A stretch of DNA of 50,597 nt from a virus, in the IMG/VR virus record IMGVR_UViG_3300009124_000027, positions 1-50,597 of that record; one strand, written 5' to 3'. The notes beneath the pieces were generated by a model, which was given only the letters and a program-made list of their open reading frames with translations, did not search any database and had not been told where the DNA came from. The position numbers and the translations under genes were made by a program. This document shows, piece after piece, positions 282 through 47,596 of this stretch (position 1 is the first letter of the stretch; each line of letters opens with the position of its first letter).

Positions 282-443
282 ATGAGCAAGAATTTTAATC
301 GTAATGATCGCTACGATAAGTATAGCGAACTCAATGACGATTTTGAGGACTACGGTTACGACGTAAAAAACATTCGTAGGCAATCCAAAAAGAAAGTTAC
401 CAAATTCAAAGACCGTTCAGAGTATTTTGAGGACAGTTTCTGA
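282..443 (+). CDS. Small charged hypothetical protein (53 aa)
   Basis: An ATG-started frame of 53 codons fills the gap between its neighbours. The product is strongly charged and aromatic: an Asn/Asp/Tyr-rich N-terminal half (NRNDRYDKYSELNDD), a basic centre (RRQSKKKVTKFK) and an acidic end. There is no signal peptide, membrane segment or catalytic motif. The start is 35 bases after the previous stop; the spacer contains TTACTAAT, like the ACTAA strings before other genes of this block. The last codons form the left arm of an imperfect inverted repeat (431-450) with the TGTCC element just after the stop. I do not recognise a family. Confidence 0.6.
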   Translation: MSKNFNRNDRYDKYSELNDDFEDYGYDVKNIRRQSKKKVTKFKDRSEYFEDSF

Positions 444-445
444 AG

Positions 446-486
446 TGTCCACTAATCTCCCCATTTGTCCCGTTTACGTGTATTGT
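446..486 (+). promoter_or_regulatory. TGTCCAC element plus -10-like TATTGT
   Basis: TGTCCACTAAT starts at 446, three bases after the stop of the preceding gene, and a -10-like TATTGT lies at 481-486, 35 bases from element start to -10 start. This is the first of four such pairs. Here TGTCC is also the right arm of an imperfect inverted repeat beginning GGACA at 431. Confidence 0.4.
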
Positions 487-512
487 ATACATGTTGACGG
501 GATTTTTTCATT

Positions 513-674
513 TTGACTATCACTGAGCGCAACCAAAAGTTATACGAACTGCGCGAGCGTTTGCTTAAGGCACGAAACGAAGTTGCCTGGATTGAGCAAG
601 AGATCTGGTTAACCAATGAAAAGTATAAGAACCAGGATCTTGATTTGTATAAAGAAATGTTCTGCACTAACTGA
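513..674 (+). CDS. Small coiled-coil hypothetical protein with TTG start
   Basis: A 53-codon frame starting at TTG encodes an almost wholly helical, charged protein with heptad-like Leu/Ile spacing (YELRERLLKARNEVAWIEQEI) followed by NEKYKNQDLDLYKEMF, which suggests a short coiled coil. An in-frame stop at 495-497 leaves only TTG 513 or a rarer ATT as starts. Upstream lie a TGTCCAC element (446) and a possible -10 TATTGT (481-486). The final codons contain the first copy of a 17-base direct repeat (665-681). Coding is supported by composition and close packing; function is unknown. Confidence 0.55.
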   Translation: MTITERNQKLYELRERLLKARNEVAWIEQEIWLTNEKYKNQDLDLYKEMFCTN

Positions 675-706
675 CACTAACTCATTCACCACTAACTGAC
701 ACTAAC
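665..706 (+). repeat. 17-base direct repeat (two copies)
   Basis: CACTAACTGACACTAAC occurs at 665-681 and again at 690-706, 25 bases apart. The first copy spans the stop codon at 672-674 and the second ends one base before the ATG at 708. The spacing of about 2.4 helical turns and the position suggest an operator or a duplicated promoter. Confidence 0.7.
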
Positions 707-707
707 C

Positions 708-965
708 ATGCAATTCCAAGTTACACAAATTGAGTTCGATTTTGAGGATACGTTGTATCCTATGAGTGAGGAAGAATGTGCCGAGTTTTATGATGACTAC
801 ATCGGCACATTTTGGGAGGCAGAGGATGGTGATGATCTCGTAGAAGAGATTACATCTGCTGCAGGATATTGCGTCAAGACTATTGACTACCGTATCATCC
901 TGGATGATATCGAAGCCCCAGAACATGAGAGCACATTTGAGATAGATTACACGACCCAGGCGTGA
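708..965 (+). CDS. Conserved cyanophage hypothetical protein (85 aa, acidic)
   Basis: This 85-aa very acidic protein has a central TFWEAEDGDDLVEEI segment followed by SAAGYCVKTIDYRIIL. From memory, similar small proteins with a W-E-x-x-D/E-D-x-L-x-E-E-I ... C-V-K-x-I-D-Y pattern recur in cyanomyoviruses, but none has a known function that I can name. There is no transmembrane or signal segment. The ATG directly follows the second copy of a 17-base direct repeat (690-706), which ends in the GACACTAAC string that resembles the -10 regions of neighbouring genes. An inverted repeat (964-981) overlaps the stop codon. Confidence 0.75.
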   Translation: MQFQVTQIEFDFEDTLYPMSEEECAEFYDDYIGTFWEAEDGDDLVEEITSAAGYCVKTIDYRIILDDIEAPEHESTFEIDYTTQA

Positions 966-981
966 CAGTTGGCACACTGTC
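964..981. repeat. Inverted repeat GACAGT-N6-ACTGTC
   Basis: GACAGT (964-969) and ACTGTC (976-981) are perfect complements separated by six bases. The repeat overlaps the stop codon of the preceding gene and its right arm enters the TGTCCAC element before the 1027 gene. It may be an operator or a small hairpin. Confidence 0.55.
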
Positions 982-1020
982 CACTAGTGACCCCAGATCG
1001 TCCGACCCCGTGCCTATAAT
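978..1020 (+). promoter_or_regulatory. Promoter of the 1027 gene: TGTCCAC element and TATAAT
   Basis: TGTCCACTAGT starts at 978 and a perfect TATAAT lies at 1015-1020, 37 bases between starts. No -35 hexamer is seen at the usual distance. The ATG at 1027 coincides with the expected transcription start. Confidence 0.6.
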
Positions 1021-1026
1021 GTCATC

Positions 1027-1224
1027 ATGATCAATCAAACCTTCACCGTTACCTGCCCTGCACTGGGCGAGACCGAAACCGTGTCCGACCTGGACCGTGC
1101 CATGGATATCTGCTTTGCTATGCATGACGAGTCCGACTCCTATGCCTACATCCGAGACGCCTTCGGTGAGATCGTAGGCGAATACGGCGATGTCATGGAG
1201 GCAGTCGCTGACCAGTTGATCTAG
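1027..1224 (+). CDS. Small acidic hypothetical protein, apparently leaderless
   Basis: The 65-aa product begins with a beta-like FTVTCPALGETETVSDL segment and continues as an acidic helical domain ending in VMEAVADQLI. No known motif is seen. A perfect TATAAT lies at 1015-1020, so a transcript would be expected to start about seven bases later, at the A of this ATG, giving an mRNA with no leader. No Shine-Dalgarno sequence is visible, which fits. A TGTCCAC element lies 37 bases before the -10. Base composition is G+C-rich, unlike the genes on its left. A GC hairpin (1232-1254) follows the stop. Confidence 0.75.
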   Translation: MINQTFTVTCPALGETETVSDLDRAMDICFAMHDESDSYAYIRDAFGEIVGEYGDVMEAVADQLI

Positions 1225-1231
1225 TGTCACA

Positions 1232-1254
1232 CAGGGGGTTGCAATTGCCCCCTG
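1232..1254. terminator. GC hairpin after the 1027 gene
   Basis: CAGGGGG (1232-1238) pairs with CCCCCTG (1248-1254) around a nine-base loop. There is no T-run, so termination is uncertain. A -10-like TATTGT (1261-1266) follows, and TGTCAC at 1225 precedes it at 36 bases, similar to the other element pairs. Confidence 0.5.
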
Positions 1255-1260
1255 ATCCTG

Positions 1261-1266
1261 TATTGT
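1261..1266 (+). promoter_or_regulatory. -10-like TATTGT before the 1272 gene
   Basis: TATTGT ends six bases before ATG 1272, close to the leaderless layout of the neighbouring genes. TGTCAC (1225-1230) stands 36 bases upstream. It supports 1272 as the transcription start even if translation begins at 1332. Confidence 0.4.
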
Positions 1267-1271
1267 AGTTC

Positions 1272-1691
1272 ATGTGGGGGGGAATGAGACCCGATCTCTC
1301 CTCCCACACCCCAAACCAATTCTTTTCTTTCATGCGTAAGATCGAACGTCAAATGCTCAACGCCATTGCTAACAACAGCAACTGGCAATCTGCTAACACT
1401 CGTGTAGAGTTTGACGCTGACACTAACGAGAGCAAAGTGTATCTGCACGGCAACCACATTGCAGATGTAGGTGAGAACTACATTCGCATCTATGATGGTG
1501 GTTGGCAGTCTAACACCACCAAGTCTCGTCTGAATGCTATTTTCAGCGAGTGTGGTATTGCTGGCGAAGGTGTATTCCAAAAGAACTATCAGTGGTTCGT
1601 TCGCCTCTACAATGGCACTGAATTCTTCGTCACTGAGTTTCGTAATGGTATGAAGATGGGCGCTCTGTCTCATCAACTGTTGCTCTCCTGA
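1272..1691 (+). CDS. Conserved cyanophage hypothetical protein (119-139 aa)
   Basis: The conserved core runs from MRKIERQMLNAI to the C-terminus and contains SANTRVEF, YLHGNHIADV, YDGGWQSNTTKSRLNAI and VFQKNYQWFV. I recall this protein as recurrent in cyanophages and related elements, without assigned function. Two starts are possible. ATG 1272 gives 139 aa and lies six bases after a -10-like TATTGT (1261-1266), matching the leaderless layout of neighbours. ATG 1332 gives 119 aa and begins exactly at the conserved core. The extra 20 residues (WGGMRPDLSSHTPNQ...) look poorly conserved, so 1332 is at least as likely as the translation start. No ribosome-binding site decides between them. Confidence 0.8.
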   Translation: MWGGMRPDLSSHTPNQFFSFMRKIERQMLNAIANNSNWQSANTRVEFDADTNESKVYLHGNHIADVGENYIRIYDGGWQSNTTKSRLNAIFSECGIAGEGVFQKNYQWFVRLYNGTEFFVTEFRNGMKMGALSHQLLLS

Positions 1692-1754
1692 GGTATGATG
1701 GATCCCTGCACTATTGCCCTCCAAACTGACAAACAACTCCTCACCATTCATAAC

Positions 1755-1958
1755 ATGAACGACTTTGAACTTTTCGAACTCAAAGAAAACTATGTCAACC
1801 ACATTATCGATGGCATGGATATGGACTCTCTGGTGCAATTGGCGCATGATTTGTTAATGGATGAGTATGAAAAGATGAGTGAGGATGAGATGATTGAAGA
1901 GATCAAAGATCTGTATGATGAGGATACTTTGATCGACTTAATCCCTGACGCTAAGTAA
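1755..1958 (+). CDS. Small acidic conserved cyanophage hypothetical protein
   Basis: I place the start at ATG 1755 (67 aa), where the family-like sequence MNDFELFELKENYV begins; an in-frame ATG at 1695 would add 20 residues with no recognisable pattern. The protein is a highly acidic helical bundle: a first helix, a GMDMDSLVQLAHDLL segment, then MSEDEMIEEIKDLYDEDTLIDLI. From memory, small proteins with F-E-L-F-x-L-K-E ... G-M-D-x-D-x-L ... E-E-I-x-x-L-Y-D-E-x-x-L recur in cyanomyoviruses. Function is unknown. It is followed by a strong hairpin (1965-2014). Confidence 0.75.
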   Translation: MNDFELFELKENYVNHIIDGMDMDSLVQLAHDLLMDEYEKMSEDEMIEEIKDLYDEDTLIDLIPDAK

Positions 1959-2171
1959 CACTCGGCCGCGGCAATCTGTCATTCTCAATAGACTTTCTTA
2001 TTGAGAATCGCGGCTCGAACTAGTACAACCACACTACCACGTCATGGCGTCTGCAACTCTGCCCCATCATCCCCGATACTGCCACCAGGGGGTGACAGTC
2101 TGGGAACTGGCACTCAAATGGTTGTGGGGTCGCCTCTAGGGTCTACAATACAGGGAACAAAGCAAAGCAAC
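1959..2171 (+). other. 213-base gap holding a structured element and a promoter
   Basis: This is the longest non-coding stretch in the window. It begins with a strong inverted repeat (1965-2014) and ends with a -10-like TACAAT (2144-2149). A TGGCAC string (2108-2113), 36 bases before that -10, resembles the TGTCCAC/TGTCAC elements of neighbouring genes. An ORF opening at 2001 runs through it in frame with the next gene, but that part has no protein-like features (STTTLPRHGVCNSAPSS...), so I treat it as non-coding. Confidence 0.5.
1965..2014. repeat. Compound inverted repeat / hairpin
   Basis: ATTCTCAATA (1981-1990) and TATTGAGAAT (1999-2008) form a perfect 10-bp stem with an 8-base loop. Outside it GCCGCG (1965-1970) can pair with CGCGGC (2009-2014), leaving a 10-base bulge on the left. 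It lies just after the stop at 1958 and has no T-run, so it is either an atypical terminator or a structured 3' end that stabilises RNA. Confidence 0.6.
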
Positions 2172-2387
2172 ATGACCAACGCCATCGCAGTTCAACCCAG
2201 CGCCTGGGGCAAGTTCGATCCTAACGGGTGCGACTGGGCGACCGACATGAACCACGCTTTCAGGATCGGCAAACTGTGGGGAGAGGAATGCATGATCTGG
2301 ATGTGCCCTCCCTCTGGTGAACCGATCCGCTGGTGTCGCACTGATACCAACACCAACGCCATCGCTGATCTGGTGTTCGGTTGCTAA
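2172..2387 (+). CDS. Small Trp/Cys-rich hypothetical protein (71 aa)
   Basis: The ATG at 2172 gives a 71-aa protein starting MTNAIAVQPSAWGKF. It is unusually rich in Trp (5) and Cys (5): DPNGCDWATDMNHAFRIGKLW, then EECMIWMCPPSGEPIRWCRTDT. The Cys spacing is not a recognisable zinc ribbon. A 128-aa form starting at 2001 is possible but its N-terminus looks non-coding. A -10-like TACAAT (2144-2149) would give a leader of about 16 bases. The segment is G+C-rich. Function is unknown. Confidence 0.65.
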   Translation: MTNAIAVQPSAWGKFDPNGCDWATDMNHAFRIGKLWGEECMIWMCPPSGEPIRWCRTDTNTNAIADLVFGC

Positions 2388-2389
2388 GG

Positions 2390-2432
2390 TGTCCACCATC
2401 GCCCTGGAATCGTGCCACCCTGTGCCTATAAT
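2390..2432 (+). promoter_or_regulatory. Promoter of the 2439 gene: TGTCCAC element and TATAAT
   Basis: TGTCCACCATC begins at 2390, two bases after a stop codon, and a perfect TATAAT lies at 2427-2432. The start-to-start distance of 37 bases equals that of the 1027 promoter. GGTG and CACC flank the element as a short palindrome. The ATG at 2439 is seven bases after the -10. Confidence 0.6.
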
Positions 2433-2438
2433 GGTTTC

Positions 2439-2597
2439 ATGAACAACGATCAACGCATACGCGCCAACCTCGCTGCCTTCGGTGAGAACTATACACCCCC
2501 TCGGAACTGGTGCCAGTCTGAGTTCTTCGGTAAGGGTTGCTGCCTGACACCTAAGCAGGTTGAGAAGCGCCGCCGTCGTGCCATGTGGCAATCCTGA
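2439..2597 (+). CDS. Small basic hypothetical protein, apparently leaderless
   Basis: The start is placed at ATG 2439 (52 aa), because a perfect TATAAT (2427-2432) ends seven bases before it and the upstream in-frame start (2412) lies before the promoter. The product has an acidic-neutral N-terminal half (NNDQRIRANLAAFGENY), a PPRNWCQSEFFGKGCC centre and a very basic end (KQVEKRRRRAMW). This may be nucleic-acid-binding, but no fold is recognised. A TGTCCACC element (2390) stands 37 bases before the -10, the same distance as in front of the 1027 gene. Confidence 0.65.
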   Translation: MNNDQRIRANLAAFGENYTPPRNWCQSEFFGKGCCLTPKQVEKRRRRAMWQS

Positions 2598-2600
2598 GAC

Positions 2601-2641
2601 TGTCCACCAATCCCCCACAGCACCCCCTGAGACCCTATACT
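2601..2641 (+). promoter_or_regulatory. Promoter of the 2648 gene: TGTCCAC element and TATACT
   Basis: TGTCCACCAAT starts at 2601, three bases after a stop codon, and TATACT lies at 2636-2641 (35 bases). The ATG at 2648 is seven bases after the -10, so the transcript should be leaderless. Confidence 0.55.
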
Positions 2642-2647
2642 AAGGAC

Positions 2648-2818
2648 ATGAACAAAACACCTGACCTCGCCGCCATCATGGCATCCTACACTCAACAGCA
2701 CAATGCGATGATGGCACGATCTGCCGCCAATCGCAAGGCGTTTGCTGAGGGTCGCCCTTTCCCCTTCCCTGCCCCTGAGGTCCAATCCAGCAACTGGAAC
2801 ATCAGCGACCGCGACTGA
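2648..2818 (+). CDS. Small hypothetical protein, apparently leaderless
   Basis: ATG 2648 gives 56 aa: a helical N-terminal half (LAAIMASYTQQHNAMMARSAANRKAFAEG) followed by a Pro/Phe-rich linker (RPFPFPAPE) and a short acidic tail. An in-frame start at 2585 would overlap the previous gene and lie before the promoter TATACT (2636-2641), which ends seven bases before this ATG. TGTCCACC (2601) lies 35 bases before that -10. No known family is recognised. Confidence 0.6.
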   Translation: MNKTPDLAAIMASYTQQHNAMMARSAANRKAFAEGRPFPFPAPEVQSSNWNISDRD

Positions 2819-2858: not shown

Positions 2859-3080
2859 ATGATTCTGGACACCTTTGACGAGTCTACCGCTGTTGACCTG
2901 CTGGTGCTGCCCCTGTGGCATCGCAACGTAGAGATCGACTGGCGCTCGGGTTCTACCTCTACTGTCCCTGTGCGTCGTCGTGATCAGGTGCGCCTCCTTG
3001 CCTGCCGCCTGCTATGCGATAACCTCTCCTATGGACGATTCGCAAACTGGGCTATGGGTGACCTGAACCCCGCCCTTTGA
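2859..3080 (+). CDS. Small KTSC-like protein, function unknown
   Basis: This 73-aa protein has STAVDLLVL at its start, an alternating strand VEIDWRSGSTSTVPV, a basic helix (RRRDQVRLLACRLL) and LSYGRFANWAM near the end. The order strand-strand-helix-(small)-Gly-Arg/Lys-Phe-x-N-x-x-(hydrophobic) matches a KTSC domain, as in the first gene of the window, although the two share little sequence. It follows the previous stop by 40 bases; TAGGAT (2832-2837) is a weak -10 candidate. The family call is tentative, the coding call good. Confidence 0.65.
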   Translation: MILDTFDESTAVDLLVLPLWHRNVEIDWRSGSTSTVPVRRRDQVRLLACRLLCDNLSYGRFANWAMGDLNPAL

Positions 3081-3754: not shown

Positions 3755-4123
3755 ATGAAAAAATTTCCCACAAAGTTCCCCCGCTACTATGTCTCTGAGG
3801 ACGGCAAAGCATGGAGAGAGAAGCAAGATGGTACGATTGTCGAAGTAGGCCAACACAAGCGTGGAGGGTCTAACAGGGGTGCCACCTCAAAGTATATGGC
3901 AATCAATGTATCACTATACGATGACAACGGAAAGTTTCAGAAACAGATTCGATATTATGTTCACAGGTTAATTGCAGAAACACTTATTGAGAACCCGCAG
4001 GGATTGCCCGAGGTAGACCACAAGAATGGAAAGCATACCGATAATGTTGTAAGCAATCTGAGGTGGTGTACAGGAGAGCAGAACAAGAAGTGGAAGGCAG
4101 AACGTGCGAGAGCAAATAAATAA
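3755..4123 (+). CDS. HNH homing endonuclease, free-standing
   Basis: The 122-aa protein has a NUMOD4-like N-terminal strand region (FPRYYVSEDGKAW ... KYMAINVSLYDDNGK) followed by an HNH_3-type nuclease core: YVHRLIAETLI with His70, EVDHKNG with Asp88-His89, then DNVVSNLRWC. This order is typical of free-standing phage homing endonucleases, which nick or cut a DNA site and spread by recombination. It has its own -10-like TATAAT (3725-3730) and lies exactly between the small-gene block and the virion genes. The stop overlaps a late-promoter-like AATAAATA. I see no intron around it. The key residues appear intact. Confidence 0.88.
   Translation: MKKFPTKFPRYYVSEDGKAWREKQDGTIVEVGQHKRGGSNRGATSKYMAINVSLYDDNGKFQKQIRYYVHRLIAETLIENPQGLPEVDHKNGKHTDNVVSNLRWCTGEQNKKWKAERARANK
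4115..4122 (+). promoter_or_regulatory. Late-promoter-like AATAAATA
   Basis: AATAAATA overlaps the HNH stop codon and matches the T4-type late promoter NATAAATA. It lies 60 bases before the ATG at 4182. The leader contains two small hairpins, GGTTTT/AAAACC (4134-4147) and CGAAAA/TTTTCG (4155-4169). Confidence 0.5.
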
Positions 4124-6123: not shown

Positions 6124-6270
6124 ATGGCACGAGCAAAAGTCGGACTGAGCGGCAAGAAAATCATTGAGTCGAAACCCAAAACCACGCGACAGGGAAGCAG
6201 CAAGAACACGAAGTATGCTGCGACTAGTCGCAACGTTGCTAAGAAGAAGTATCGCGGTCAGGGTCGATAA
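6124..6270 (+). CDS. Small basic conserved cyanophage protein (48 aa)
   Basis: This 48-codon frame encodes MARAKVGLSGKKII... ending in AKKKYRGQGR, with about a third Lys/Arg. From memory an almost identical short basic protein (GLSGKK ... KTRQG ... TKYAATSRN ... YRGQGR) recurs in many cyanomyoviruses near the baseplate cluster. Its charge suggests nucleic-acid binding or packing inside the virion, but its role is not known to me. A TATAAT (6094-6099) precedes it, and its stop overlaps the late promoter GATAAATA (6266-6273) of the next gene. Confidence 0.85.
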   Translation: MARAKVGLSGKKIIESKPKTTRQGSSKNTKYAATSRNVAKKKYRGQGR

Positions 6271-46990: not shown

Positions 46991-47596
46991 ATGAATTTTA
47001 TACACATAAGTGAGAATGCTATTTCTCACGAAACTTGCGATGAATTAATTTGCCTCTTTGAATTTAACAAACATCTTCAAGAACAAGGAAGTATAGTAAA
47101 AGAAGGCAATTCTATAGTTAATCTTAACTACAAAAAATCCACAGAAATATCGATAGATCAAAGTTTTCTATCAGATCCTCTTTGGTCTTTTTCTATAGGA
47201 AAAATATTAGATTCTTTATATAAAGAAGCAGATAGATACAAAGAAAATTTTTCAAACTACGAGGATGGAAAATCTATTCTGGGGTTAGACTCTCTTGATA
47301 GATGGAGTATTGATGATACCTTCAATTTTCAAAAATATAATCCAAATGATGCTTACTATTCATGGCACTGCGAAGTAGGGGGTTTAGAAACATCCAAAAG
47401 AATACTTGCGTGGATGATTTACTTGAATGATGTTGAGGATGGTGGAGGAACTGAATTCAAATTTCAGAATTATACATCAAAGGCACAAAAAGGAAAATTG
47501 TTAATTTGGCCAGCTTATTGGACTCATATGCACCGAGGAATACCCAGTAAAACTCAAGAAAAATATATCTTGACTGGGTGGTTTTCTTTCATATAA
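46991..47596 (+). CDS. 2-oxoglutarate/Fe(II)-dependent oxygenase
   Basis: The 201-aa protein ends in a double-stranded beta-helix core of the 2OG-Fe(II) dioxygenase type: FQKYNPNDAYYSWHCE with His126 and Glu128 in place of the usual HxD, RILAWMIYLNDVEDGGGTEF, GKLLIWPAYWTHMHRG with the distal His179/His181, and KYILTGWFSF as the 2-oxoglutarate end. Such enzymes hydroxylate proteins, nucleotides or small molecules; cyanophages often carry several, with unknown substrates. Its place between fibre and neck genes would fit modification of a virion protein, but that is inference. It is more A+T-rich than its neighbours. The stop overlaps a consensus late promoter. Confidence 0.88.
   Translation: MNFIHISENAISHETCDELICLFEFNKHLQEQGSIVKEGNSIVNLNYKKSTEISIDQSFLSDPLWSFSIGKILDSLYKEADRYKENFSNYEDGKSILGLDSLDRWSIDDTFNFQKYNPNDAYYSWHCEVGGLETSKRILAWMIYLNDVEDGGGTEFKFQNYTSKAQKGKLLIWPAYWTHMHRGIPSKTQEKYILTGWFSFI

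Follow-up and report, generated by a model that had tools for sequence, protein, structure and literature searches.

We analysed a 50.6-kb fragment of a T4-like cyanomyovirus (IMG/VR record IMGVR_UViG_3300009124_000027, 50,597 nucleotides; the whole stretch is called the window below), in which a short element containing TGTCCAC recurs ahead of small genes. A run of small genes fills the first 3.6 kb of the window, and the same cluster lies upstream of gp25/gp6 in relatives; the nearest relatives of the first 4.2 kb are S-H9-1, S-WAM2 and S-RSM4. The exact 9-mer TGTCCACYA occurs at 446, 978, 2390 and 2601, all on the + strand, with no other copy in the window. These sites begin 3, 13, 3 and 4 bases past the last base of the preceding stop codon, and -10 hexamers start 35, 37, 37 and 35 bases downstream of them, at 481 (TATTGT), 1015 (TATAAT), 2427 (TATAAT) and 2636 (TATACT). 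A TTGACA-like -35 is not visible at any of the four promoters. To this extent our analysis agrees with an earlier note on this DNA, which had read TGTCCAC as the site of an activator, phage or host, that replaces the -35. The sites at 1225 and 2108, classed there as weaker relatives, have scores that make them full members of the element in its generalised form (described below); they represent its second right-arm subtype, TG[T/G]CACA. The note did not recognise the left arm (CAGTT, 12 bases upstream) or the palindrome that the two arms form, nor did it mention the hairpins of the copies at 446 and 1225.

The features are as follows; operators and promoters are predicted, and offsets run from the start of the right arm to the start of the -10.

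429..452, + strand: operator 1, palindrome GAGGACAGTTTCTGAAGTGTCCAC, right arm TGTCCAC at 446; orthologous copies in S-WAM2, S-RSM4 and S-B43
467..508, + strand: intrinsic-terminator-like hairpin, -20.2 kcal/mol, z -6.0, U6 tail; its loop lies within the promoter 1 -10
481..486, + strand: promoter 1 -10, TATTGT, offset 35; predicted to drive the open reading frame (ORF) at 513-674 (TTG start)
961..984, + strand: operator 2, CGTGACAGTTGGCACACTGTCCAC, by element model score
1015..1020, + strand: promoter 2 -10, TATAAT, offset 37; predicted to drive ORF 1027-1224 (phrog_25733)
1208..1231, + strand: operator 3, CACA subtype, CTGACCAGTTGATCTAGTGTCACA; near-identical copies in S-WAM2 and S-RSM4
1232..1254, + strand: hairpin in the promoter 3 spacer, GGGGGTTGCAATTGCCCCC, -15.9 kcal/mol, without a T tract
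1261..1266, + strand: promoter 3 -10, TATTGT, offset 36; predicted to drive ORF 1272/1332-1691 (phrog_554)
2091..2114, + strand: operator 4, TGGCAC subtype, GGTGACAGTCTGGGAACTGGCACT, by element model score
2144..2149, + strand: promoter 4 -10, TACAAT, offset 36; predicted to drive ORF 2172-2387 (phrog_6036)
2373..2396, + strand: operator 5, GTGTTCGGTTGCTAAGGTGTCCAC, degenerate left arm, by element model score
2427..2432, + strand: promoter 5 -10, TATAAT, offset 37; predicted to drive ORF 2439-2597
2584..2607, + strand: operator 6, TGTGGCAATCCTGAGACTGTCCAC, by element model score
2636..2641, + strand: promoter 6 -10, TATACT, offset 35; predicted to drive ORF 2648-2818 (phrog_14769)
2778..2801, + strand: weak candidate operator 7, right arm at 2795, score 18.4; may be chance
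3031..3054, + strand: weak candidate operator 8, right arm at 3048, operator score 6.2, the -10 dominating the total; may be chance

An HNH endonuclease gene (3755-4123, + strand) borders the small-gene cluster.

Taken by itself, the count of TGTCCACYA in the window is marginal: four were seen against a mean of 1.02 in dinucleotide shuffles, and 3 of 100 shuffles reached four. The bare 9-mer showed no consistent excess over a backward control in whole phage genomes either, and therefore position and context matter, not the word. It is the comparative data, with their fixed -10 spacing, that settle the element as real. A functionless chance recurrence, which would fit the shuffles, is refuted by that spacing over hundreds of copies, by 11 phage genomes and by near-zero controls, and deserves practically no credence.

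A palindrome at a fixed distance from the -10

The matching positions in S-H9-1, S-WAM2, S-RSM4 and S-B43 bear the same sites, and these copies have CAGTT 12 bases upstream. A scan of viral contigs with the pattern CAGTT-N7-TGTCCACYA-N4-CCCC found at least 119 loci; among the matches listed, all 119 were cyanomyovirus-like. Loci chosen with this pattern, which demands CAGTT, TGTCCACYA and CCCC, served to train, by iteration, a weight matrix that allows a variable distance to the -10 and defines the generalised element. The last training round gave 643 raw matches vs 4 in reversed sequence, and the matrix found 544 non-redundant copies in 1.01 Mb of IMG/VR sequence. The motif converged on an imperfect palindrome of about 24 bases, TGTGMCAGTT-N4-AASTGKC[C]ACA, of which TGTCCAC is the right arm, in two right-arm subtypes, TGTCCAC and TG[T/G]CACA. 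The element first described as TGTCCAC is real, but that description was truncated to one arm of the palindrome and one of its two arm subtypes.

When no -10 was required, a -10-like hexamer stood at offset 35-38 in 145 of 180 non-redundant TGTCCACYA sites; the other offsets from 17 to 83 held 0-5 such hexamers each almost throughout, with 15 at offset 41. Across 662 copies found with the weight matrix, to which the -10 belongs, offsets 35, 36, 37 and 38 were used by 155, 314, 165 and 28 copies, respectively. The palindrome ends about 27-30 bases before the start of the -10, with the operator located just upstream of the -35 slot.

We considered the palindrome as an RNA hairpin and rejected this on the lack of covariation between its arms: pairing equalled the independence expectation at every symmetric position, and no compensatory changes were seen. 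The same result argues that the palindrome is a DNA operator rather than an RNA stem.

Hairpins occur in the spacers between operator and -10. Spacers fold at -6.6 kcal/mol compared with -4.5 kcal/mol in shuffles, and 19% of them lie below -12 kcal/mol vs 3% of shuffles. A terminator-like stem with a T tract is found in 43 of 463 cassettes vs 22 of 1389 random places (1.6%). A terminator is thus present in about 10% of cassettes, and the clearest case in the window is the one at 446. Its hairpin (467-508) is also found in S-WAM2 and S-RSM4; it would be whole in transcripts arriving from upstream, and its 5' arm would be missing from transcripts starting there. Such folding and terminators, in cassettes that sit between small variable genes and often directly past stop codons, would suit recombination-prone promoter-terminator modules of the PeSL type that shuffle small genes, with the palindrome mainly a recombination or RNA stem-loop feature. 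However, most cassettes lack a terminator, the arm positions do not covary, and recombination does not need a rigid operator to -10 spacing. PeSL-type exchange was also judged unlikely for one S-PM2 region (PMC4503421), and we regard this explanation as very unlikely.

Occurrence in phage and host genomes

At a score above 16, 11 of 11 picocyanobacterial T4-like phages, marine and freshwater and infecting Synechococcus or Prochlorococcus, carry 9-29 copies each (S-PM2 29, S-CRM01 27, S-WAM2 21, S-SKS1 20, P-SSM2 20, S-RSM4 18, S-CAM9 16, S-B43 15, Syn9 12, Syn19 12 and S-TIM5 9), and their reversed-sequence controls carry 0-1. No copies were found at this threshold in the whole genomes of T4, Ma-LMM01, HTVC008M (a SAR11-infecting pelagiphage and member of the Kyanoviridae) and Syn5 (T7-like). 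A second model, a sequence-only profile made from 87 copies, gave 10-29 matches in each of nine element-bearing phages and none in these four. Enrichment upstream of many phage genes, tested in the relatives, was strong, so that the outcome named in the earlier note as refuting its reading, a motif not enriched before other phage genes, did not occur.

The stop codon of a frame of at least 40 codons lies near 125 of 207 copies, compared with 17.7% of random places, and for the nearest ATG downstream the commonest position is 28-35 bases past the start of the -10. The main cluster of copies is upstream of gp25/gp6, and further copies precede other genes; S-PM2, for example, has copies before uvsX and gp32 (from protein starts, with names read from the sequence). 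The uvsX promoter of S-PM2, at 90525 of NC_006820, bears a copy of the operator; host PhoB bound this promoter, in which no Pho box could be recognised (PMC10976474). Eight of the 12 copies in Syn9 lie at 43-53 kb ahead of the small ORFs gp55-gp90, and the Syn9 copies come after stop codons of small ORFs; the predicted Syn9 -10s include those starting at 47257, 49131 and 53049. In the Syn9 record (NC_008296), the annotated starts of gp61 (44804) and gp73 (48608) precede the predicted -10s (44827 and 48611, respectively); because of this, the true starts of both genes are probably downstream of the annotated ones.

In bacteria and archaea the element is nearly absent. A scan of 257 Gb of their genomes gave four matches, one of them in a 6-kb contig of a Synechococcus metagenome-assembled genome (MAG). 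The palindrome alone has 21 sites in 201 Cyanobiaceae genomes vs 12 for a backward control, which is little or no enrichment. Of 101 host genomes, 5 have matches to the full profile, none of them credible, and the best two matches are in small contigs of the same Synechococcus MAG, ARS1019. The small contigs of this MAG that hold strong copies are probably phage contigs binned with the host. We rejected the element as the site of a host regulon, as it does not recur upstream of host genes in the genomes searched, and its near-absence argues that the binding protein is probably not a host regulator with a regulon of its own.

A host transcription factor could still be exploited by the phages, as PhoB is for some genes. 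The element is found only in picocyanobacterial phages, including the divergent S-TIM5, and not in HTVC008M, a Kyanoviridae member with another host; early transcription requires something present at time zero; and PhoB of the host binds some S-PM2d promoters (PMC10976474). We nevertheless consider this unlikely, given the 21 vs 12 sites, the lack of a credible profile match and the one Synechococcus-MAG match in 257 Gb, and given that the palindrome does not fit the consensus of the Pho box or that of the NtcA box (PMC3037559). The earlier note had left open whether the activator came from phage or host, and absence from host genomes makes the host unlikely.

Gene co-occurrence did not name the binding protein. 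S-RSM4 ORFs were kept if each of the other 10 genomes with the element had them and none of the 4 controls did, and the survivors (names read from the sequence) were psbA, psbD, an Hli-like protein, an opposite-strand ORF overlapping psbA and a 48-residue basic protein, phrog_516. The last of these, at 6124-6270 (+ strand) in the window, is present in 11 of 11 picocyanobacterial myoviruses, including S-TIM5, and was not found in T4, Ma-LMM01, HTVC008M or Syn5; it is a lead, without evidence as a regulator. A 77-residue protein that looks helix-turn-helix-like by eye, phrog_1920, was rejected as the activator: it occurs in 9 of 10 genomes and is missing from S-TIM5. It had no Pfam match, and a search of the PDB gave weak, probably chance, zinc-finger matches.

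A predicted activator site at early promoters

We think it likely that the element is a promoter bearing the site of a phage-supplied activator, used at early promoters, most of them without a -35. We infer a dimeric protein of phage origin that acts early and by activation. Transcription from each copy would rely on the host's RNA polymerase and its primary sigma factor, of the sigma70 type, reading a clear -10 and a usually poor or absent -35. The downstream edge of the operator would lie just upstream of the -35 slot, with its centre about 52-55 bases before the predicted start, and a dimeric DNA-binding protein on the palindrome would recruit or position RNA polymerase, offsetting the weak -35. 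This protein is most likely phage-encoded, because the element is confined to picocyanobacterial T4-like phages and was not found in hosts, and it may arrive inside the virion or be synthesised very early. Small-gene units, for the most part those in the cluster ahead of gp25/gp6, would be headed by these promoters, as would a handful of genes for replication and recombination, uvsX and gp32 among them. Where a terminator lies between operator and start or covers part of the -10, as it does in a minority of cassettes, it would stop upstream transcripts where a new one begins. More tentatively, a phage activator, virion-borne or made within minutes, might redirect host RNA polymerase to these -35-less early promoters in a way distinct from T4 Alt, MotA/AsiA and gp55 and common to all picocyanobacterial T4-like phages, including S-TIM5.

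Most of the promoters have no good -35; at least 5 of 6 bases of TTGACA are present in 83 of 662 copies. Where TTGA occurs in the spacer, it stands at -24 to -22 from the start of the -10 in 48 of 71 occurrences, a position that confirms the sigma70 -35 register. In this register TTG[AC] is found in 12 of 202 copies of the TGTCCAC subtype vs 35 of 183 of the CAC subtype. The proposal that an activator site replaces the -35 thus holds in that there is an activator-type site at a fixed distance, mostly without a -35, but the replacement is not strict.

Several observations weigh against an activator. A good -35 coexists with the operator in the 83 copies, and operator score and -35 match are nearly uncorrelated (rho -0.06, p 0.15), so compensation is not significant overall; a weak anticorrelation between operator and -10 may stem from the score threshold. 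The C-rich -35 slot is partly ascertainment from the CCCC-demanding training pattern and partly terminator arms. The host searches used strict filters that lose weak matches, and activation over repression is predicted from position and weak -35s. Palindromes are typical of repressor operators, early genes need switching off, and a phage-encoded repressor that closes early promoters later in infection would suit the phage-only distribution. However, the palindrome is placed ahead of the -35 slot, as activator sites usually are, at a tight spacing of 35-38 bases, and most copies lack the -35 that a merely repressed promoter would need. We therefore find a repressor's operator distinctly unlikely.

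Relation to known regulatory systems

Cyanomyoviruses are among the most abundant ocean viruses. The means by which they activate their earliest genes, lacking Alt and MotA/AsiA, has been described as unclear, as has their early and middle transcription control; sigma70-like early motifs were stated as not found in S-RSM4 (PMC2984593). The operator-spacer-minus-10 unit defined here has 18 copies in S-RSM4 and shows which promoters have it. It also makes the search for the binding protein direct, with the 24-base palindrome, present in these phages and absent from hosts, as bait.

T4 middle promoters (MotA box plus AsiA) resemble the present ones in that an activator-bound element offsets a missing -35 before a sigma70 -10. 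The elements themselves differ: the MotA box occupies the -30 region and does not have the form of a 24-base palindrome, whereas the conserved element here is a palindrome that ends about 27-30 bases before the start of the -10. The genes motA and asiA are absent from cyanomyoviruses (PMC2984593), as the earlier note had supposed. In cyanophage promoters the NtcA and Pho boxes of the host are likewise regulator sites upstream of a -10, with GTA-N8-TAC as the NtcA box and CTTA repeats as the Pho box (PMC3037559). Neither consensus matches TGTGMCAGTT-N4-AASTGKCACA.

PeSLs of T4-type phages carry strong, full sigma70 promoters. The cassettes resemble them in being dispersed among small variable genes and, in a subset, in combining a promoter with a terminator stem-loop. 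Unlike PeSLs, they carry a palindromic operator upstream, usually lack a -35, and include a terminator in about one case of ten; a strong complete sigma70 promoter is not typical of them, at least 5 of 6 bases of TTGACA occurring in only 83 of 662 copies. PeSLs in S-PM2 have been discussed (PMC4503421, citing Arbiol 2010 and Comeau 2014).

A text search of the literature for TGTCCAC with cyanophage returned nothing relevant. The Syn9 transcriptome study of Doron et al. from 2016 (ISME J 10:1437) reportedly describes a novel early-gene regulatory element, abundant and conserved among T4-like cyanophages; a cyanophage element of this kind was thus probably already known, contrary to the earlier note, which knew of none named with this sequence. 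The present element is probably the Syn9 one, in which case the copies in the window are new copies of a known element. The two are alike in that the present element, too, belongs to T4-like cyanophages of Synechococcus and Prochlorococcus, being conserved in all 11 genomes, and in that its Syn9 copies head the small-ORF cluster.

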